Origin: Litchfieldia alkalitelluris
GTDB taxonomy: Bacteria > Bacillota > Bacilli > Bacillales > Salisediminibacteriaceae
NCBI RefSeq assembly: GCF_002153425.1
Contig: NZ_KZ119600.1
Span: forward strand, 3,089,920 to 3,153,919
Length of the DNA: 64,000 nucleotides
Direction of reading: 5' to 3'
Position numbers and translations under genes: made by a program
Notes under the pieces: model-generated
Told to the model about the DNA's origin: nothing
What the model saw: the letters and a program-made list of their open reading frames with translations, nothing else
Databases searched by the model: none
Shown: one piece after another, positions 7,222 through 24,234 of the stretch
Layout: every line of letters begins with the position of its first letter
Position numbering within the stretch: the stretch's first letter is position 1

Positions 7222-7944
7222 TTAAATATAATAAAACGTAATAACGAGGATAATGAAAATAACACTGTTTATAACTTCTACTATTCCAATATGTTTCGGT
7301 GTTCGTAAATATTTTATTGGTAGAAATTTCATTTTTAGAAACGTAATAAAAAATGCTATCGCTACTCCAATCAATTGTAAAGCTATGGAACAAATAATAA
7401 TAAAAATGTGATAGTAAAGAGACCTCTTTTTAAACGTTTCATTTTTCTTTTCCCTTATAAGGGATTTCACATGAAATACACTAGCAGTATAGAAAAGAAT
7501 ACATACCACCATATATAGAAATGCTTCAGGCTGAAGCGCTGGTTCATTTAGTCGATAGGAAATAAGTAATAGCCCTGATAAAGCAGTAATAGCACATAAG
7601 TCATTAATAAATAGGCGTTCTTGCTTTGTTTTTGCAAAGTATAAATTTACTAGAAAAAGCGGAGCTATGCTAAAACATATAATGAGTAACTCAGGCACAC
7701 GTATTAAAAACGGTATAATAATTGTTAAACCAATCACAACGTATACGAAAAAAGATGGCCAAACATCTTTATGCTTAGGATTTCTTAAATAGTTTAGCAA
7801 TGGGGCTTGGGCAAAATATACAGCTAAGAAGCCTAAAAACAAGACAACGTGACTCCAAGTTGGTTGACTAATAGAAGCACCAATCCAAAATGGAACAATA
7901 AGCATCGCCCATGCACCATGTTCACGTGGAATATACCAAGTCAT
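7222..7944 (-). CDS. ywiC: YwiC-like integral membrane protein
   Basis: A 240-residue protein with about eight membrane helices, beginning WYIPREHGAWAMLIVPFWIG, the hallmark opening of the YwiC family. The RBS is GAGGGGAAG. In B. subtilis ywiC belongs to the narK-fnr-ywiC-narGHJI region; here it lies 0.9 kb from fnr and near narK. A perfect Fnr palindrome is centred 41.5 bases before the predicted transcription start, so expression is very likely oxygen-controlled. The biochemical role is unknown. Confidence 0.85.
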   Translation of the reverse strand: MTWYIPREHGAWAMLIVPFWIGASISQPTWSHVVLFLGFLAVYFAQAPLLNYLRNPKHKDVWPSFFVYVVIGLTIIIPFLIRVPELLIICFSIAPLFLVNLYFAKTKQERLFINDLCAITALSGLLLISYRLNEPALQPEAFLYMVVCILFYTASVFHVKSLIREKKNETFKKRSLYYHIFIIICSIALQLIGVAIAFFITFLKMKFLPIKYLRTPKHIGIVEVINSVIFIILVITFYYI

Positions 7945-7976: not shown

Positions 7977-8019
7977 ATTGTACCGTATATGAATCATCAA
8001 GCTTGTGATAGCAATCACA
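7977..8019 (-). promoter_or_regulatory. Fnr-type promoter of the ywiC-like gene
   Basis: TGTGATAGCAATCACA (8004-8019) is a perfect TGTGA-N6-TCACA palindrome. On the minus strand TACAAT lies at 7982-7977, exactly where a class II promoter with the box at -41.5 would have its -10 element (predicted start near 7970). Confidence 0.85.
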
Positions 8020-8853: not shown

Positions 8854-9564
8854 TTAAATTGTACAAATTTCTACGGGACAGTCTCCACAATGTAAGTAAT
8901 CTTTTAAAAACTGAATATTATGGAGAATAATACGCCCATCATTCATTGATAAAATTTTAGATTTTTTTAGATCATTTAACATCCGATTAACACTTTCTCG
9001 TGTAGTCCCAATATAATTTGCAATATCTTGATTTGTTAATTGAACATTTATTAAGATTCCATCATTTGTTTCCATTCCATAAGAATTACTAAAACGAACA
9101 AGGGTAGAGTAGAATGCGCCAGTTTTTCCACATAAAATTAAGTCTCTAAACTTCGCCTGTGTTGATTGCGTATGACGAGCAAACCATTTCATAAACGCTA
9201 CTGCAATTTCACCATTTTCCCTAAATAGAGCCTCTAATGTATGACGATCAAAACGGACGAGTACAGCATCCTCAATCACTTCAGCCGTAACACTAATTGA
9301 CATCTCATTAAATAAACCTACTTCACCTACTAACTCATCCTTTTGTTTTAAGTGAACAGAAAATTCTTTGCCATCAGCAGTCATTTTGCTTAATCTAACT
9401 TTACCTGATCTCACAAGATAAACATGTTCAGGAAAATCACCTTCATAAAAGAGAAAACTACCGCTTTTTACCGATATTTCCAATCCGTATGTTAGTAATA
9501 ATGTTTGGTTTTCTTCAGAAAGTTCGTTAAAAAACCTTTTCATTTGCAGTTGTTTTTTATCCAT
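8854..9564 (-). CDS. fnr: Fnr anaerobic transcription regulator (B. subtilis type)
   Basis: A 236-residue CRP/FNR-family protein. The start is the ATG at 9564 (GGAAAGAGG RBS); the in-frame TTG upstream is less likely. It has an N-terminal cyclic-nucleotide-binding-like barrel (about 15-130), a dimer helix, and a winged helix whose recognition helix reads TTRESVNR, suited to TGTGA half-sites. The C-terminus HCGDCPVEICTI places Cys at 226, 229 and 234, and Asp lies at 141. B. subtilis Fnr binds its [4Fe-4S] cluster with three such C-terminal Cys plus Asp141. It lies between ywiC and narK, and local Fnr boxes are its likely targets. Confidence 0.93.
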   Translation of the reverse strand: MDKKQLQMKRFFNELSEENQTLLLTYGLEISVKSGSFLFYEGDFPEHVYLVRSGKVRLSKMTADGKEFSVHLKQKDELVGEVGLFNEMSISVTAEVIEDAVLVRFDRHTLEALFRENGEIAVAFMKWFARHTQSTQAKFRDLILCGKTGAFYSTLVRFSNSYGMETNDGILINVQLTNQDIANYIGTTRESVNRMLNDLKKSKILSMNDGRIILHNIQFLKDYLHCGDCPVEICTI

Positions 9565-11166: not shown

Positions 11167-11369
11167 TATTTTTCATCTTCCTTATACTCAACTTTTTTCC
11201 ATTGAAGAAAAGTGAAGAATGCAATACCTGCCATGACAACACCTACGATAGAATAAGGAAGAACCATTTCAAATTCTCTACCTAAGTAAGCCCTTGTTGT
11301 CAATTGAAGCATAATTACATTCACGGCTACTGTAAAAAATATAATTCCCCAGTACCATTTCTTATCCAT
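11166..11369 (-). CDS. small two-helix membrane protein of the nitrate reductase operon
   Basis: 67 residues with two membrane helices (about 6-25 and 37-56) and a charged C-terminus (KKVEYKEDEK). It overlaps the end of the Rieske gene by 8 bases. I do not recognise a family. Its place between the Rieske subunit and NarK suggests an anchor or assembly subunit for the complex. Confidence 0.75.
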   Translation of the reverse strand: MDKKWYWGIIFFTVAVNVIMLQLTTRAYLGREFEMVLPYSIVGVVMAGIAFFTFLQWKKVEYKEDEK

Positions 11370-11892
11370 GTCTAAACTGCCTCCCTACTGCATAAACCTT
11401 TCCATTCACTACTTCAATCTCAATTAATGGCAGCTCGCGCTGAGGCGGACCAGCAATAGGTTGACCACTATTAACATCATAAGAACCTTTATGGCATGGA
11501 CATAATAATTTATTTTCTTCCTTTTGATAAAACACAGGGCACATTAAATGGGTACATTCTGAATTGTAGGCAACTAAATCACCATCTACTGTATGAACTA
11601 ATAAAGCTTGATCTTTTTCTGTTGGATAGTAAAACTTATGGGACTCACCAACTGGCAATTGATCTAAATCTATGATTTCCACACGGTCTTCTTCATCATC
11701 AGTAAGCCCCATCATTGCCCTTACACTAAATGGAACGGTGGACAGTCCCAATGCCATGGAAGCTCCAACTGCAGATTTCAAAAACGCCCGTCGATTAAAT
11801 TTAAGGTCTTCCTTTTGTTCAACGTTATCAACTAGATTAACCATGTCATTTTTCGATTTATTAGCATGACGGCTTTTTGGGCATTCTGACAT
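11362..11892 (-). CDS. Tat-exported Rieske [2Fe-2S] protein
   Basis: 176 residues from the ATG at 11892 (RBS AAGGGGTGG). An unusually long polar leader of about 35 residues precedes a twin-arginine motif NRRAFLKSAVGAS and a hydrophobic stretch. The C-terminal Rieske domain has both cluster boxes: CTHLMC and CPCHKGSYD. It resembles the iron-sulfur subunit of cytochrome bc/b6f complexes, but no cytochrome b/c1 genes accompany it. Its operon carries the molybdoenzyme genes, so it probably passes electrons at the outer membrane face. That role is inferred. Confidence 0.85.
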   Translation of the reverse strand: MSECPKSRHANKSKNDMVNLVDNVEQKEDLKFNRRAFLKSAVGASMALGLSTVPFSVRAMMGLTDDEEDRVEIIDLDQLPVGESHKFYYPTEKDQALLVHTVDGDLVAYNSECTHLMCPVFYQKEENKLLCPCHKGSYDVNSGQPIAGPPQRELPLIEIEVVNGKVYAVGRQFRHG

Positions 11893-11924
11893 GTTCGCCA
11901 CCCCTTTCAATTTTTCTAAGAATA

Positions 11925-12467
11925 TTAATCTGAATAAACTCCAAAGAATTCAGGTACATACTGCCATTTATCGTTTTGCGACGGCTTCTTTCCTTCAATC
12001 AGATTCATTTGTGTACGACGTCTACGGAGCTCCATCATCTCATCGTGATCAATAAACCTTATTGCATCACTTGGACACACAGAGGCACACATTGGAGAAA
12101 TATCATACTTCGTCCTGTCATAACACATATCACATTTGTACATTTTGTTTTCTTCAAAATCGAATTTTGGAATACCGAAAGGACAACCAAATGTACAGTT
12201 ACGGCATCCAATACACTTTTCTTCCATTGCAGATAAAACGACACCCTCTTCAGTGATCTGAATAGCATTAGCAGGACAAACTTTTGCACACGCTGGATCT
12301 TTACACTGCATACACATCATTGGATACGTCTGTCTACTTTCAAAAAAGTCTATATATTCAACATAATTTCGTTCTTTCGCGTCATGGCCACCACATTCTC
12401 TACAGGCAGCTTGGCAGGAACGACATCCGATACAGCGTTCAAATTCTAAATACATTACCTTTTTCAT
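11925..12467 (-). CDS. four-cluster ferredoxin-type electron transfer subunit (DmsB/NarH-like)
   Basis: 180 residues with four Cys groups: CIGCRSCQAAC, CMQCKDPACAKVC, CIGCRNCTFGC and CDMC...CASVC. This is the pattern for four [4Fe-4S] clusters in beta subunits of the DMSO-reductase superfamily. There is no signal peptide, so it should sit in the cytoplasm beside the catalytic subunit encoded just upstream (15-base gap). It should carry electrons from the membrane subunit to the molybdenum site. Confidence 0.9.
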   Translation of the reverse strand: MKKVMYLEFERCIGCRSCQAACRECGGHDAKERNYVEYIDFFESRQTYPMMCMQCKDPACAKVCPANAIQITEEGVVLSAMEEKCIGCRNCTFGCPFGIPKFDFEENKMYKCDMCYDRTKYDISPMCASVCPSDAIRFIDHDEMMELRRRRTQMNLIEGKKPSQNDKWQYVPEFFGVYSD

Positions 12468-12482
12468 GATTGTTCCTCCTCC

Positions 12483-14606
12483 TTATACCTTCTTGAGTTT
12501 TACGGCACACACTTTAAATTCCGGCATTCTAGATGTAGGGTCTAGGGCTGGATTTGTTAGTTTATTAACAGAAAGTTCTTTCCCCCAGTGATATGGGATA
12601 AATACATGATCTTCTCGAATGGCTTTCGTCAATTTCACTTTAACAGTCATGGATCCTCGCTTTGTTTCTAGATAAACATTGTCTCCATCTTGAAGCGCAT
12701 ATTTTGACGCTAGGTGTGGGTGCATTTCAGCATAAGGCTCTGGACATTGTTCCATTAAGAAATCTGTACGCCTCGTTTGACTTCCAGATAAATAATGGAA
12801 TACAACACGACCTGTTGTTAAAATGTGAGGGAACTCATTAGATGGATTTTCATCTGGCTCCTGCCACTCAACAGCAGCTAAGTTCGCTTTTCCGTCCGGC
12901 GTCCCAAAACTCTCCTGAAACATAGTTGGTGTTCCTGGGTGATCCTCAGATGGACATGGCCAGAAAATACCGTCTTCTTTTTCAATTCGCTCATATGTTA
13001 TACCAGAATAATCAGCTTTCCCACCTTTTGAAGCAACTCTGAACTCTTCAAATATGTCTCTCGGGTTGTTGTAGTTGAAGAAGCTGCCTTTCCCCATTCT
13101 TTCTGCAATTAGTTTAAGAATCTCCCAATCTGTTTTGGATTCTCCAATAGGGTCCTTCACTTTTCTGATTCGAATAACACGGCCTTCCAAGTTAGTTGTC
13201 GTTCCTTCATCTTCAGCCCAGCTTGATGCAGGTAAGACAACATCTGCAAATTCAGCTGTTTCTGATAAAAAGAAATCACTTACAACCATGAAATCAAGTT
13301 TATTAAAACTATCCCAAATATAATTATTGTTCGGTGCTGATACTGCTGGATTACTACAAATCACATGCATGGCACGAATATTTCCTGCTTGAATTTCATC
13401 AAACATTTCATATGCTGAAACACCAGCCTTTGGCATTTCTGAAGGATCAATTCCCCAAACACTGGAAACGTATTTCACATGTTCTGGATTGTCTATTTTT
13501 CTATAACCAGGAAGAGCATCGGCTTTTTGACCATGTTCACGTCCTCCTTGCCCATTTCCTTGACCAGTAAATGTGGCAACACCTGATGCGAATTTTCCAA
13601 TTTGTCCCCTTAATAATGCCATCGATGTATATAACGTCACATTGTCAACACCCTTAGCTTGTTGCTCTACACCTCTTGCAAACATCATCACTGAACGTGG
13701 AGACTTACCGTATATGTGAGCTGCTTTTACTAATTTTTCAATGGATACCCCTGTAATTTCCGATGTATATTCAGGAGTAAATTTTTCAACGGAAGCCTTT
13801 AGCTCTTCATAATTGTTACAGCGCTCGTTAACATACTCCTCATCAACGTAACCCTCTTTAATTATCAAGTGCATCATTCCATTGGCTAACGCTGAATCTG
13901 TTCCTGCTTTTAAATCTAAGTGAACATCTGCAATTCTAGCGGTTGGGGTTTCTCTTGGATCTGCAACGATCATTTTTGCACCTTTGTCTCTTGCTTTCCA
14001 TAACCATTGAATCGTCGTTGGGTGACATTCGGCAGTATTTGTTCCAGCCATAAAAAAGCAGTCCGTATGTTCAAGCTCTGGCCACGGTAAAGTGGAACCT
14101 CTGTCTATACCTAGTGTTTTCATAAATCCGCCTGCAGCAGAAGACATACAGAAGCGACCGTTGTAATCTACGAATCTAGTACCAAGTGCAACTCGAGCGT
14201 ATTTACCAACGAGGTAGCATTTTTCATTTGTCATAGACACGCCGCCAAACACAGACACTGCATCCTTACCATGCTTTCCTTGAAGACTTTTAAAGTTTTT
14301 CTCAATTAAATCCAATGCCTCATCCCAAGTACTTTCCACAAATTCACCATTCTTCTTAATAAGTGGTTTCGTAATTCGTTCTGGGTGATCAATCGTTTGA
14401 TAGGCTGTAACTCCTTTAGGACACATTTTCCCCAGTGTTACTGGCCAGTCATATCTAGGTTCCACACCTACAACTTTCCCTGTCTTTTCATTCAATCTTA
14501 TGTGCATTCCACATTGCATCCCGCAATAACAACAGTGGGTTGTAATCAGCTTTTCACCTGGGTGCTGTAAATTTTTCACACCTGGTTTTGTAACAAATTC
14601 TGTCAT
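12483..14606 (-). CDS. molybdopterin (bis-MGD) nitrate-reductase-type catalytic subunit
   Basis: A 707-residue DMSO-reductase-family enzyme. An N-terminal [4Fe-4S] site is formed by Cys25, Cys28, Cys32 and Cys62 (CCYCGMQCGM, then MCPKG). The presumed Mo ligand is Cys153 in NGRFCMSSA. This is close to the RxCMSSA/RHCMASA context of NarB/NasA/NapA nitrate reductases and unlike the NarG Asp type. There is no Tat signal, so it is cytoplasmic. Its start directly abuts the stop of the membrane-subunit gene. NarK in the same operon and Fnr boxes in front argue for nitrate respiration rather than assimilation. Formate dehydrogenase is the main alternative, but the Cys context and NarK argue against it. 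Confidence 0.85.
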   Translation of the reverse strand: MTEFVTKPGVKNLQHPGEKLITTHCCYCGMQCGMHIRLNEKTGKVVGVEPRYDWPVTLGKMCPKGVTAYQTIDHPERITKPLIKKNGEFVESTWDEALDLIEKNFKSLQGKHGKDAVSVFGGVSMTNEKCYLVGKYARVALGTRFVDYNGRFCMSSAAGGFMKTLGIDRGSTLPWPELEHTDCFFMAGTNTAECHPTTIQWLWKARDKGAKMIVADPRETPTARIADVHLDLKAGTDSALANGMMHLIIKEGYVDEEYVNERCNNYEELKASVEKFTPEYTSEITGVSIEKLVKAAHIYGKSPRSVMMFARGVEQQAKGVDNVTLYTSMALLRGQIGKFASGVATFTGQGNGQGGREHGQKADALPGYRKIDNPEHVKYVSSVWGIDPSEMPKAGVSAYEMFDEIQAGNIRAMHVICSNPAVSAPNNNYIWDSFNKLDFMVVSDFFLSETAEFADVVLPASSWAEDEGTTTNLEGRVIRIRKVKDPIGESKTDWEILKLIAERMGKGSFFNYNNPRDIFEEFRVASKGGKADYSGITYERIEKEDGIFWPCPSEDHPGTPTMFQESFGTPDGKANLAAVEWQEPDENPSNEFPHILTTGRVVFHYLSGSQTRRTDFLMEQCPEPYAEMHPHLASKYALQDGDNVYLETKRGSMTVKVKLTKAIREDHVFIPYHWGKELSVNKLTNPALDPTSRMPEFKVCAVKLKKV

Positions 14607-15749
14607 TTATTTCTCCCCCTTTACATCTTCATAAAATGTCTCATTACGTTCACGACCGAACCCTGGAATATGGATACCATTATTTGTTTGAACTGGCTCC
14701 TCCATCGTTTTACCAAAAGGTGATGGCATATTTAAATGATTCATTACACGAATTTTCCTACGACATGCTGGACAATAATCAGATAATTTATGGCCATCTT
14801 GCATTTCAAAGTCAAAGTTTTGTTGGCCTAGTATCGCCTGAACATCTGTAATTTGATCATCGTTCGAATAAAGCTCATCACAGCCAATACAGTTTTTCGT
14901 ATCGACTCCAACTTCTTCTTGATAGTTCATTGGTACTGCAGTTGCCAGTGGCCTAATCGGAAGATGGAACAGCTTTCCAAATGGAAAATATAATAGGAAA
15001 ACAACAACGGTAATTTGGTGTATAAGTGCCATTTGTGGGTGCATCCACCCTGATAAAAACTTATATGAAACTGTAAGAACTAATCCACTCACTGTCATTG
15101 CAAGCATTAAATATAGTGGGAGCAAATCAAATTCTGCTCTTTCCGTAACTTTTAGATCATTGTTTTTTAATCGACGAGTAATCGCCATAACCAATCCTAC
15201 TAAAAGCATGGACGACGTAATATTTAAGGCATTGTAGGACATTTCAGCAAAAATACTTTCAGGGTGCATTTTCAATGTTTCAAATCCAAATACAACTACT
15301 GCAAATGTACTTGGGTCAACCATCTTAAAAGACATCCAGTTGAATGTTAAAGCAAAAGTAATCGCAAGGGAGCCTATACAACCCCAGGCTATTAGCCAGT
15401 GCTGGACACCTCTATAAATACCACGTTTGAAAATATATTTTTGAAGTATAATATTATCCACAAGCGTCGTAACGATCGCTTTCGTATTTCGTTTTTGACG
15501 CTTTTTTGTTTTCATATTTTGAAAACTACGTTTAATCATTTGCTGTGTCGCCGGGCGTAACCCCCAGGCAGTTAGCCTAATTGTCATTCCTATAAAAAAT
15601 ATAATAGAGGCAATCATATATCCTGATGATGCCCATTTCACTTTAGTAAATTGACCTGTGCTCATCCAAAGTAAGAAAAATAAAACCATAAGAACGATAA
15701 AGGAATACATACTTGCCTTTGAATAAAACGATCTTTCTAACCCCTTCAT
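14607..15749 (-). CDS. b-type cytochrome-like membrane subunit with C-terminal CxxC pairs
   Basis: 380 residues, about six membrane helices (near 13-31, 43-63, 117-136, 173-191, 208-228, 240-259). His117, His237, His244 and His262 lie in or beside helices and are candidate heme ligands, as in NarI/DsrM-type quinol-oxidising subunits. The cytoplasmic tail carries CIGC (287-290) and CPAC (326-329), suggesting a metal or FeS site. It is the first gene of the nitrate reductase operon, with RBS AAGGGGGAAG. The likely role is to take electrons from menaquinol. NarI is usually shorter and lacks this tail. Confidence 0.75.
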   Translation of the reverse strand: MKGLERSFYSKASMYSFIVLMVLFFLLWMSTGQFTKVKWASSGYMIASIIFFIGMTIRLTAWGLRPATQQMIKRSFQNMKTKKRQKRNTKAIVTTLVDNIILQKYIFKRGIYRGVQHWLIAWGCIGSLAITFALTFNWMSFKMVDPSTFAVVVFGFETLKMHPESIFAEMSYNALNITSSMLLVGLVMAITRRLKNNDLKVTERAEFDLLPLYLMLAMTVSGLVLTVSYKFLSGWMHPQMALIHQITVVVFLLYFPFGKLFHLPIRPLATAVPMNYQEEVGVDTKNCIGCDELYSNDDQITDVQAILGQQNFDFEMQDGHKLSDYCPACRRKIRVMNHLNMPSPFGKTMEEPVQTNNGIHIPGFGRERNETFYEDVKGEK

Positions 15750-15809: not shown

Positions 15810-15875
15810 ATTTTAAGAATCAAAACCATAAACCACTGTGCAATTCCTCACACCAACCCTGTGAATTTAATCACA
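15810..15875 (-). promoter_or_regulatory. tandem Fnr boxes and promoter of the nitrate reductase operon
   Basis: A proximal box TGTGCAATTCCTCACA (15837-15852, one mismatch) lies at -41.5 relative to a -10 TAAAAT (minus strand, 15815-15810). A perfect distal box TGTGAATTTAATCACA (15860-15875) is centred 23 bases further upstream (about -64.5). The predicted start is near 15803, 54 bases before the ATG. Confidence 0.8.
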
Positions 15876-16554: not shown

Positions 16555-16884
16555 TTAACTTATCGTTTTTAATTTTTGATCAGACATTAATATAAAAAAC
16601 TTTTCCCAAGTCTTGTTGACTAAGTTATTAATTTCCTCCTTTGTTGCATTATCCACATGAATTCCACCAGAAACAACGACATTTTTATGGAAAGTATTAC
16701 ACCAAACTGTAGCCAACTCTAAAAATAATTGTTCTTCTTTGTGATGTGGAAGTCCATGACTGACTAACTGGACTTGATCATTATTCCACGTTGCAATTAC
16801 TACTGCTCCAATATGTGGCCTTGTACCTCCTGTAATAACTATAAGGTCATCAGCACCAATTTGTTGAACCTCACATTGAATCAT
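16555..16884 (-). CDS. LpdD-like (prenylated-flavin chaperone family) protein
   Basis: 109 residues. The N-terminal half has ADDLIVITGGTRPHIGAVVIA, which resembles the LpdD/YclD-type small proteins that accompany UbiD-family decarboxylases; the C-terminus carries HKNVVVSGGIHVDNATKEEI. No ubiD or ubiX gene is in the window. A perfect Fnr box lies at -41.5 of a predicted promoter, so it belongs to the local anaerobic set. The family call is moderate and rests on motif memory. Confidence 0.55.
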   Translation of the reverse strand: MIQCEVQQIGADDLIVITGGTRPHIGAVVIATWNNDQVQLVSHGLPHHKEEQLFLELATVWCNTFHKNVVVSGGIHVDNATKEEINNLVNKTWEKFFILMSDQKLKTIS

Positions 16885-16920: not shown

Positions 16921-16963
16921 ACTTTAACAAAATTTTATAACTAAGTATGTGAAGAGAATCACA
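16921..16963 (-). promoter_or_regulatory. Fnr-type promoter of the LpdD-like gene
   Basis: TGTGAAGAGAATCACA (16948-16963) is a perfect box. On the minus strand the -10 position predicted for a -41.5 site (16926-16921) reads TAAAGT, and the start would be near 16914. Confidence 0.75.
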
Positions 16964-18304: not shown

Positions 18305-18566
18305 AAAAAAATAGCTACTATGAAGTGTACCTTCGTTAGTAGCTTTTTTTCGTTCATAATGATTGGGGGTCATAATGAACTAAATCCATGCATTTAATTT
18401 GGGTTTGTAACGCTCTTATTTGGCAACATGCTGGTTTTGGGGGAACCAGCTTCACTTACGTTGGGTTCTTATTTAAAGGAAGTAAAGCTATGCATCACCG
18501 TAAAAAGTGTACTATGAAGAAATTGTTGCCTTCATTTCTGCCTAATAACTCTTCAATAGATGATAT
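18305..18566 (-). ncRNA. candidate Fnr-activated small regulatory RNA
   Basis: Transcription is predicted from about 18566 to the terminator at 18313-18344. The box in front is a perfect Fnr palindrome with its centre at -41.5 and TAGAAT as -10. Within the ~260 nt, no ORF longer than 11 codons has an RBS. A 7-bp stem GCTGGTT/AACCAGC exposes a CCCCCAA loop (18430-18450), and GACCCCCAATC follows before the terminator (18361-18371). C-rich single-stranded motifs are how several Firmicute sRNAs, such as RoxS/RsaE, pair with Shine-Dalgarno sequences. Expression is unproven. Confidence 0.6.
18313..18344. terminator. strong bidirectional terminator at the end of the candidate sRNA
   Basis: AGCTACTA / TAGTAGCT with an additional GAAG/CTTC inner pair and seven T on each strand. 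It ends the candidate sRNA on the minus strand and the 18.0-kb gene on the plus strand. Confidence 0.85.
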
Positions 18567-18572
18567 AGTCAT

Positions 18573-18615
18573 ATTCTACAAGTATTTATGAATTCAAACT
18601 GTGAAATAGATCACA
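18573..18615 (-). promoter_or_regulatory. Fnr-type promoter of the candidate sRNA
   Basis: TGTGAAATAGATCACA (18600-18615) is a perfect box. On the minus strand TAGAAT (18578-18573) falls exactly at the predicted -10. On the plus strand TATATA (18637-18642) is also near the class II position, so the site may fire both ways; no gene lies on that side. Confidence 0.75.
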
Positions 18616-18721
18616 TTATTATCCCTTAAAAACATTTATATATGAACATTTTATGGATAACTAGACTCTCTATTATTTAAAAATGTTTTTACCATCATCG
18701 TGATTTAATGAATTATTAAAA

Positions 18722-22434: not shown

Positions 22435-23055
22435 TTAATTCACAACATCGATCAAGTCAGCAATAGATGCATCCAAATCAAAATCAGCATCCCCATCATA
22501 CATCCTGACAATTATTCCTTCTGGATTTACAAGAAAAAATCGAGTAGGGTGAGCTATATCATTTTGATCTGGGATCCTTGTAACTGGTAGCTTAAATGTT
22601 TTTAAAGCAAAATCTTCAATTTCGTCCTGAGAATAACCCGTCACAAATTGCCAATTACTCAGTTCAGCTTCGTAAGCATCTGCATATTCAAGAAGCTGCT
22701 CTGGTGAGTCGAAATCAGGATCGACAGTAAAGGAAACAATCTGTACATCTAAATTATTTTCTAAAATACCATCCTGCAAAGCTACCATATTTGGAGTCAT
22801 AGTCATACAAACAGTTGGACATCTTGTAAATATCGTTTTCGTTAACCACCATTGCCCTTCCATTTGATCAACATTCCAATCTTCCCCATCTTGATTGACA
22901 GCCGATATGTCAGCTACTTCCCATGGTTCTTCAACACCTGAAACATCCGTCACAGGATCTCGACCTTTAGGTTCTGGATCACCATATAGAAAGCTACATC
23001 CTTGGAGTAAAAAGACTATCCCTAAAGCGAATAGTATCAATCTTAAATTAGACAT
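22435..23055 (-). CDS. SCO1/SenC copper chaperone lipoprotein
   Basis: 206 residues from the ATG at 23055. A signal peptide ends in the lipobox LQGC. The thioredoxin fold carries the copper site CPTVC and a downstream His (AHPTRFFLVNPEG). SCO proteins build the CuA centre of cytochrome c oxidase subunit II. The start overlaps the end of ctaG, so the two oxidase assembly factors are made together. Confidence 0.92.
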   Translation of the reverse strand: MSNLRLILFALGIVFLLQGCSFLYGDPEPKGRDPVTDVSGVEEPWEVADISAVNQDGEDWNVDQMEGQWWLTKTIFTRCPTVCMTMTPNMVALQDGILENNLDVQIVSFTVDPDFDSPEQLLEYADAYEAELSNWQFVTGYSQDEIEDFALKTFKLPVTRIPDQNDIAHPTRFFLVNPEGIIVRMYDGDADFDLDASIADLIDVVN

Positions 23056-23060
23056 TTTCC

Positions 23061-24005
23061 TCATCCCTCTTTCAAATTAACCAAATCATTCCCACGAACA
23101 ATCTCCATATCATATTCTTTATGAGTAGTGGAGTCATTTGTAGCTTTATCCCTATTCATCCATTGTTTAAAGACATAACCGATGGCCACACCATATACAA
23201 GCTCCTGAATAACCTTCATAGATGCACCGCCTAGTTGCTGGTCGTGTAATGGAGATAACGGAGCTATTGACTGAGAACCAGTTGTAAAGAGTTCATATGG
23301 AATCTGTGCCCCAGCAGGTAAACAATAGCTAATTGCTAGTGCCCATGTAGCAGGGTCCGTATAAGTCGCATACAATGGCGATCCTGCAAAAATGATAAGT
23401 ACACAGGCAGGAGTAAATAGAGCTCCGCTCGCAAACATGTACCCTACCTTTTTTAACTCTGACATATCATATTTTGTAACCATTCTAGGCAGTAAATGCC
23501 ACCACATGAGTAATGCAGCGAACAACATTCCTAATTGGTATACGTTGTGCCACCCCTCATTTGTGAGAAGTGTGTCAAAGGTAAAGGGAAGATGGTAAAA
23601 AGAGATCATAGCATTGAATAGCACAAGCCCTAAAATTGGAAATCCAACGATTGTAAATATCCCCCTAAGTACTTTAAACTGCCTAAAATATTCGAAAAAC
23701 CATGTAGGGAGTCCGAGTAACAATAAAGGTGGAGTGATTAAATAAACAATGGCCATTGAGAGCATGTGCATGCTTAACATTAAATGTCCTAATACATATA
23801 ATGGCCCTCCAAACCCAAAATAGATCCCTAAAAGTCCGAGATGAAAGTAGACCTTCCTACGTGTTGGGACAGGCTCAGCATTAGTGAACTTATTCCTCAA
23901 TGGTCCAATAAGCCAAAAGTATAAAAAACTAATAAGTCCCAGAACAATAATCAACTCTGGCGTCCAAATGGTTCTTGCAGTGAACGAAGAAAAAAATAAT
24001 TCCAC
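23061..24005 (-). CDS. ctaG: CtaG, cytochrome c oxidase (caa3) assembly factor
   Basis: 314 residues from a GTG at 24005 with AAGGAGGTGG; the upstream in-frame extension has no RBS. Seven membrane helices are present, with family motifs FGGPLYVLGHLMLSMHMLSM and LLMWWHLLPRMV containing conserved His. In B. subtilis CtaG is needed for active caa3 oxidase. It forms an operon with the SCO1-like gene. Confidence 0.92.
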   Translation of the reverse strand: MELFFSSFTARTIWTPELIIVLGLISFLYFWLIGPLRNKFTNAEPVPTRRKVYFHLGLLGIYFGFGGPLYVLGHLMLSMHMLSMAIVYLITPPLLLLGLPTWFFEYFRQFKVLRGIFTIVGFPILGLVLFNAMISFYHLPFTFDTLLTNEGWHNVYQLGMLFAALLMWWHLLPRMVTKYDMSELKKVGYMFASGALFTPACVLIIFAGSPLYATYTDPATWALAISYCLPAGAQIPYELFTTGSQSIAPLSPLHDQQLGGASMKVIQELVYGVAIGYVFKQWMNRDKATNDSTTHKEYDMEIVRGNDLVNLKEG

Positions 24006-24234
24006 GTTCCCACCTCCTTGCATAATTAGAAAAAGAAAAGTAAGAAAAATTTTACAGTTTGTACTTATTCTTGCATTTTGAGCCACACTTATACTAAAAC
24101 TTATCTGCAATTTAATTAGAAAAAGATAAGATCTATTTATCACCATTATTAAGTATAGTATATTTATAACATGTTTTCATTGTAAAACCCATGTATTTGC
24201 TTGGTATGTTTTACTATTTGAAAGGAGCTTGGAT

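Follow-up and report, generated by a model that had tools for sequence, protein, structure and literature searches.

What kind of gene lies in the unannotated stretch at about 18566-18305 on the minus strand of the window (the whole 64,000 nt that were analyzed, G000:C1:3089920-3153919), and on which genes would its product act? The original prediction was an Fnr-activated, noncoding sRNA similar in function to FnrS of Escherichia coli, a proposal to which the promoter geometry (shared by all 23 loci) and the covarying stems give support at the level of sequence. The gene, its promoter geometry, its structure, its complementarity to other genes, and the conservation of all these are directly readable in the DNA, and the features are collected in Table 1. 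An Fnr-driven sRNA very probably exists at this place.

Table 1. Positions in the window of the predicted sRNA, its promoter elements, hairpins and pairing segments, and of a regulator gene
Feature	Position	Strand	Basis or remark
Upstream conserved motif CATAAAATGTTCA	18640..18659	-	Candidate second activator site
Fnr-type palindrome, perfect, TGTGATCTATTTCACA	18600..18615	-	Centered at -41.5
-10 box TAGAAT	18573..18578	-	21 nt downstream of palindrome
Predicted sRNA, about 262 nt	18305..18566	-	Promoter and terminator geometry, folding, covariance models R1 and R2
Block 1, antisense to qcrC Shine-Dalgarno sequence and start codon	18472..18498	-	Complementarity
Hairpin 1, 7 bp, loop CCCCCAA	18430..18450	-	Folding and covariation
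Block 4, ATGTTGCCAAAT	18418..18429	-	Best conserved match is the DUF420 gene start, cta region
Block 5, CGTTACAAACCCAAA	18398..18412	-	Complementary to ctaC ribosome binding site
Hairpin 2, C-rich loop with CCCCCAAUC	18352..18380	-	Folding and covariation
Terminator hairpin	18313..18344	-	Followed by U tract 18311-18305, ATTTTTTTA; seen in the 262-nt fold
Crp/Fnr-family regulator gene	8854..9564	-	Domains; C-terminal CxxCxxxxC

The perfect Fnr palindrome and the TAGAAT at class II spacing on which the prediction was founded are both present. With TAGAAT (18578-18573) 21 nt 3′ of the palindrome, read as a class II site, the +1 falls at 18566. Four Fnr-type palindromes of the window are perfect, and nine occur at up to one mismatch (mean of 2.21 in 100 shuffles, none reaching nine). 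The complete pattern TGTGAN6TCACA-N21-TANNNT occurs four times in the 4.88 Mb of the window's genome (G000) and its reversed control not at all (two occurrences over 35 genomes). In all 23 homologous loci, the palindrome (perfect in 19, with one mismatch in four) lies exactly 21 nt 5′ of a TANNNT; this spacing was measured, not imposed, in 22 of 22 loci, the 23rd (G021) having been found partly through that very pattern. A TTCA-type hexamer is found 5′ of the palindrome in 22 of the 23 loci, with a gap mostly near 26, 16, or 7 nt and, in some loci, as a pair 11 bp apart; it is a possible activator site of the OmpR family (ResD-like). Further class II Fnr promoters occur in the window at 7977-8019, before a YwiC-like gene (7222-7944), and at 16921-16963, before a 109-aa gene (16555-16884). 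Together with that of the sRNA, they make up three of the four class II Fnr-pattern promoters in the genome.

The Crp/Fnr-family gene of the window is likely the Fnr, an assignment at the level of domains, with no equivalog model scoring above its cut-off. A match to a Crp/Fnr-type gene is present in all 18 family genomes that have a covariance-model match for the sRNA, and the sRNA is found in none of the eight family genomes without such a gene match (Fisher p 0.001, ignoring kinship). Of 19 flanks, 11 (L033, L035, L036, L039, L040, L041, L042, L044, L045, L046, and L050) have a second Crp/Fnr-type gene on the opposite strand, no farther than about 1 kb downstream of the sRNA; at the corresponding place in the window's genome, there is none.

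Homologs of the sRNA occur in 23 genomes, 19 of them in the source family and four in a second family. By blastn, true homologs are present in eight of the nine genomes of the genus; the ninth (G004, 76% complete) gives a short match elsewhere. Covariance model R1, built from eight sequences, matches 18 of 35 family genomes, in four of eight genera, and, across the order, seven of 397 genomes, including one that does not belong to the family. With R2, built from 19 sequences, matches are found in three of seven second-family genomes at E up to 0.01 and in 10 of the 397 at E up to 0.05, including a fourth second-family genome at 0.042. The homolog of G021 is shorter; missed by R1, it was recovered by pattern searches and retains the qcrC block, hairpin 2, and the terminator. 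The second-family RNAs (L031, L075, L076, and L077) have hairpin 2, a GTTACCAAATAACAAC/GTTGCCAAATAACAA(C/T) block, and TCGCCCAAA; the qcrC block is absent. Three short blastn matches of 23-28 bases, considered as extra copies (L010, L011, and L012, in G004, G007, and G000), situated inside an apparent coding gene, were dropped. A pattern scan of named genomes gave 24 loci, eight of them in Evansella or Salipaludibacillus, the other 16 being set aside by organism name.

The 262-nt RNA folds with -58.6 kcal/mol (z -4.36), and none of 200 shuffles is as low. The CCCCCAA foreseen in the loop of a 7-bp hairpin is there (18450-18430), and the second C-rich element, GACCCCCAATC, forms a hairpin loop as well (18380-18352). 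The predicted terminator is also seen in the fold, hairpin and U tract, although a simple terminator and promoter scan of the window listed neither 18344-18313 nor the promoter of the sRNA. Block 1 is partly paired in the minimum-energy fold of G000. Among 19 sequences, both partners have changed in 12 of the 17 pairs of the two hairpins (0 of 500 shuffles) and 93.6% of the cells pair, in an alignment that was fitted to the covariance model and thus leans towards the structure; on a MAFFT alignment of the first eight sequences, the count is four of 17 (0 of 500 shuffles). The C-rich loops are kept while the stems covary. The loop of hairpin 2 is CCCC(C)AATC in 22 of the 23 RNAs (CCCCCAAAA in G238) and that of hairpin 1 is CCCC(C)AA in most. 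Hairpin 1 is missing in G021, unrecognizable in the second family, and poorly folded in G003.

For the targets, start regions were taken from 800 kb each of G000 and of another genome, G002; our own caller, with a minimum length of 80 codons per ORF, gave 744 in the former and 749 in the latter, with 451 reciprocal-best pairs. The strongest target is met by block 1. The gene, outside the window, encodes cytochrome b C-terminal and cytochrome c domains, and we take it to be qcrC (menaquinol:cytochrome c reductase; name from B. subtilis). In G000, 24 of the 27 positions pair (22 Watson-Crick and two G-U), covering the Shine-Dalgarno sequence and the AUG. Watson-Crick pairs number 19-24 in 17 of the 19 family genomes, and the ungapped 27-nt pairing score is 20-25 in 17 of the 19 against a background maximum of 19.0 over 744 start regions; G031 and G034 fail this pairing test. 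In energy, the 22-nt block with qcrC of G000 reaches -32.0 kcal/mol, the best of 744 other start regions -23.1, and none of 500 shuffled blocks is as low as -32.0. The folding-energy rank of qcrC is 1 of 744 in 15 of the 19 family genomes and 2, 3, 5, and 69 in the remaining four, the last being G031 (these ranks, like those of ctaC, use the G000 start regions as background for every genome). Over 35 genomes, the reverse complement of block 1 at up to three mismatches is found at 42 sites (16 sRNA loci, 24 qcrC starts, and two others) and the reversed control at six. The related genomes in these target counts are not independent. Within the family, direct targeting of qcrC is likely.

In the second family, qcrC ranks 251, 379, 340, and 724 of 744 as a target. 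When the RNA of G002 is taken at full length, qcrC (-42.0) is surpassed by one background start region (-43.4). The energies of sRNA-qcrC pairs from the same genome are not systematically better than those of swapped pairs, so coevolution with qcrC is apparent at most for G034, where the own qcrC is the best of 13 tried for the RNA; for the RNA of G031, it is not. Since the start regions of qcrC and ctaC are conserved in genomes without the sRNA too, the RNA seems to have adapted to its targets.

The sequence GGGTTTGTAAC in front of ctaC, the gene for cytochrome c oxidase subunit II, is complementary to block 5, a match weaker than that of block 1 to qcrC. For this block, ctaC ranks 1 of 744 in G000 and 12 of 749 in G002. 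By folding energy, it ranks 25th or better among 744 in 15 of 18 family genomes; the rank is poor in G026, G031, and G034 (422, 108, and 232), as it is in two of three genomes of the second family. The odds that ctaC is a direct target appear to us about even. For block 4, the start of the DUF420 gene in the cta region ranks 3 of 744 in G000 and 2 of 749 in G002. Two candidates were rejected. As a target of block 1, ctaD is second of 749 in G002 and 63rd of 744 in G000, and the match in other genomes is not longer. The G000 counterpart of a G002 gene, presumably YlaH, with a 15-nt match of its start to block 4 ranks 25 in the paired set.

In the number of conserved target pairs, loop 2 is the sole segment above all of 12 shuffles (6 vs. 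1-5); the 5′ segment gives 1 vs. 1-7, loop 1 gives 6 vs. 2-7, and the mid segment 6 vs. 0-7. The list of conserved pairs also includes ctaC. Exact complements of at least 10 nt show no excess, with 12 in G000 (controls 5, 7, and 20) and 15 in G002 (controls 11, 6, and 12). The best conserved match of loop 2 is to ftsZ (L088:7113-8255 in G000, and its G002 ortholog), which ranks 1 of 744 and 2 of 749 and has GATTGGGGGATC before the start in both genomes; a link from oxygen to cell division through ftsZ would be surprising.

The original prediction had directed the C-rich sequence to GGGGGAA in the ribosome binding sites of the first gene of the nitrate reductase operon, the DUF2249 gene, and the TAXI gene. 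The motif does precede all three, but it is too common to be specific (before 23 of 744 ORFs in G000 and 18 of 749 in G002, with GGGGG before 80 of 744). Between G000 and G002, it is kept in only one of the three, the TAXI-type gene (NMT1_3); the G002 ortholog of the nitrate reductase gene has GGAGG instead, and the DUF2249 gene has no G002 ortholog within the compared set. Pairing of loop 1 to the start regions of orthologs does not exceed that of shuffled controls. Nor is the targeting simply of the RoxS/RsaE type, as had been suggested, because the antisense block that would recognize qcrC is long and is not part of the loops.

The reading we prefer, and consider likely, is that of an Fnr-induced, FnrS-like, trans-acting sRNA that would shut down the cytochrome c branch without oxygen. 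For transcription, oxygen response, pairing in the cell, and repression, we infer the following course. At low oxygen, Fnr would activate the class II promoter, the geometry of which predicts an RNA of about 260 nt. Block 1 would pair with qcrC mRNA across its Shine-Dalgarno sequence and start codon, blocking the translation of menaquinol:cytochrome c reductase, and the segment between the hairpins would pair with the start region of ctaC in most family genomes and keep ribosomes off. The two C-rich loops probably either aid contact with G-rich ribosome binding sites or act on additional targets. Altogether, the cytochrome c branch would be turned off while Fnr turns on nitrate respiration. 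More tentatively, at somewhat less than an even chance, the RNA would be a modular Fnr-induced sRNA of Bacillota with separate segments each antisense to different start sites of the cytochrome c branch, block 1 to qcrC and, weakly, ctaD, and blocks 4-5 to ctaC and the DUF420 gene, so that the bc-caa3 route is switched off at once. Modules would then come and go from genome to genome (G021, G026), and the first of them may have originated when the qcrC start region was copied in reverse.

On the other hand, the RNA could be a C-rich generalist like RoxS or FsrA, in which invariant loops bind many G-rich Shine-Dalgarno sequences and the matches to qcrC and ctaC are secondary. Such a role would suit hairpin 2 and its loop, the part common to both families and G021, as well as the conserved pairs of loop 2 and its ftsZ ranks; we find it unlikely, however, as the conservation of block 1 extends beyond 20 nt and a single target stands out for it, G-rich ribosome binding sites being common and loop 1 without excess. 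A protein-binding RNA, acting as a sponge with repeated CCCAA motifs instead of pairing to mRNAs, would leave the qcrC complementarity unexplained and is very improbable, even though the RNA of the window has four CCCAA-type motifs, spread over its loops and linkers, and block 4 adds a GCCAAAU; we know of no protein in these bacteria that such a sponge would bind.

Still less probable is a conserved small-protein gene or an untranslated part of a longer mRNA. The stretch overlaps with four ORFs of 25-33 codons on the minus strand, one of them beginning upstream of the predicted +1, and the plus strand carries one of 67 codons. By eye, no evident Shine-Dalgarno sequence precedes the four, so the earlier statement that the stretch has no ORF of more than 11 codons with a ribosome binding site stands. 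A covariance search and a look for codon-like substitution had been proposed as checks, and both speak for the RNA: in alignments of homologous loci, reading frames and start codons are not conserved, while stems covary and C-rich loops stay. A longer mRNA is further disfavored by the terminator that follows the sRNA and by the next downstream ORF in the window, which is on the opposite strand.

How does the preferred FnrS-like sRNA compare with known systems? No Rfam family reaches its gathering score in the window, and none that is relevant appears up to E 10 within the stretch; RsaE/RoxS (RF01820) is found in none of the nine genus genomes, with the B. subtilis control positive. FnrS of E. 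coli is an sRNA under FNR activation and represses genes that are not needed in anaerobiosis, including those of aerobic respiration (PMC8139620). The predicted promoter described here has Fnr geometry in all 23 loci, and it is complementarity that points to repression of aerobic genes; unlike FnrS, the RNA belongs to another host lineage, is without an Rfam match, and has a long antisense block to one cistron. RoxS/RsaE of Bacillus subtilis and Staphylococcus aureus has C-rich regions able to pair with Shine-Dalgarno sequences and is redox-linked via ResD (PMC4409812); qcrC appears in a RoxS target table with a ratio of 0.70 (PMC10433868). The present sRNA too has C-rich regions with this pairing ability (in two hairpin loops), but its promoter is of the Fnr type, its main pairing would lie outside the loops, and it does not match RF01820. 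FsrA of B. subtilis is a C-rich sRNA with a target in the qcr operon, given as qcrB (PMC8216469) or as qcrA (PMC8464778); it is Fur-controlled and 84 nt long, whereas the sRNA here has no Rfam match and the qcrC start as proposed target. NrrF of Neisseria meningitidis regulates cytochrome bc1 genes (PMC5586341); it is Fur-controlled and from an unrelated bacterium, and its likeness is one of described function.

The pertinent passages of a review of B. subtilis sRNAs name five trans-encoded sRNAs with known targets and do not contain the word Fnr (PMC8464778), and those of a review of nitrate respiration place RoxS under ResDE (PMC8139620). Among the top-ranked matches in the open PMC literature, there is no Fnr-activated sRNA of Bacillus-type bacteria. 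If the preferred reading is true, Bacillota came independently to the strategy of FnrS, an RNA turning off oxygen respiration, and did so with a long antisense specific to the qcrC cistron. Confirmed by experiment, it would be a new oxygen-control switch in salt-loving relatives of Bacillus. With the sRNA come covariance models, a target open to direct test, and natural variants in which the modules are separated.

The sRNA stretch adjoins a molybdoenzyme cluster with a NasC-like catalytic subunit, a QmoC-like subunit, an MFS transporter, and the Crp/Fnr regulator, and the molybdenum-cofactor genes MoaE and MoeA are also near. The cluster (11362-15749), with a perfect Fnr-type site beside it at 15860, fits no clear named family. 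The catalytic subunit scores 925 bits, below the NasC cut-off of 1100 and above the Fdh-alpha cut-off, and the QmoC-like membrane subunit scores far under its own; ferredoxin-like and Rieske-like proteins are also recognized by eye. The cluster may be an unusual respiratory nitrate reductase. On the other side, genes for cytochrome oxidase assembly of the SCO1/SenC and CtaG types (22435-24146) lie about 4-5.5 kb from the sRNA, and they share its neighborhood in several relatives.
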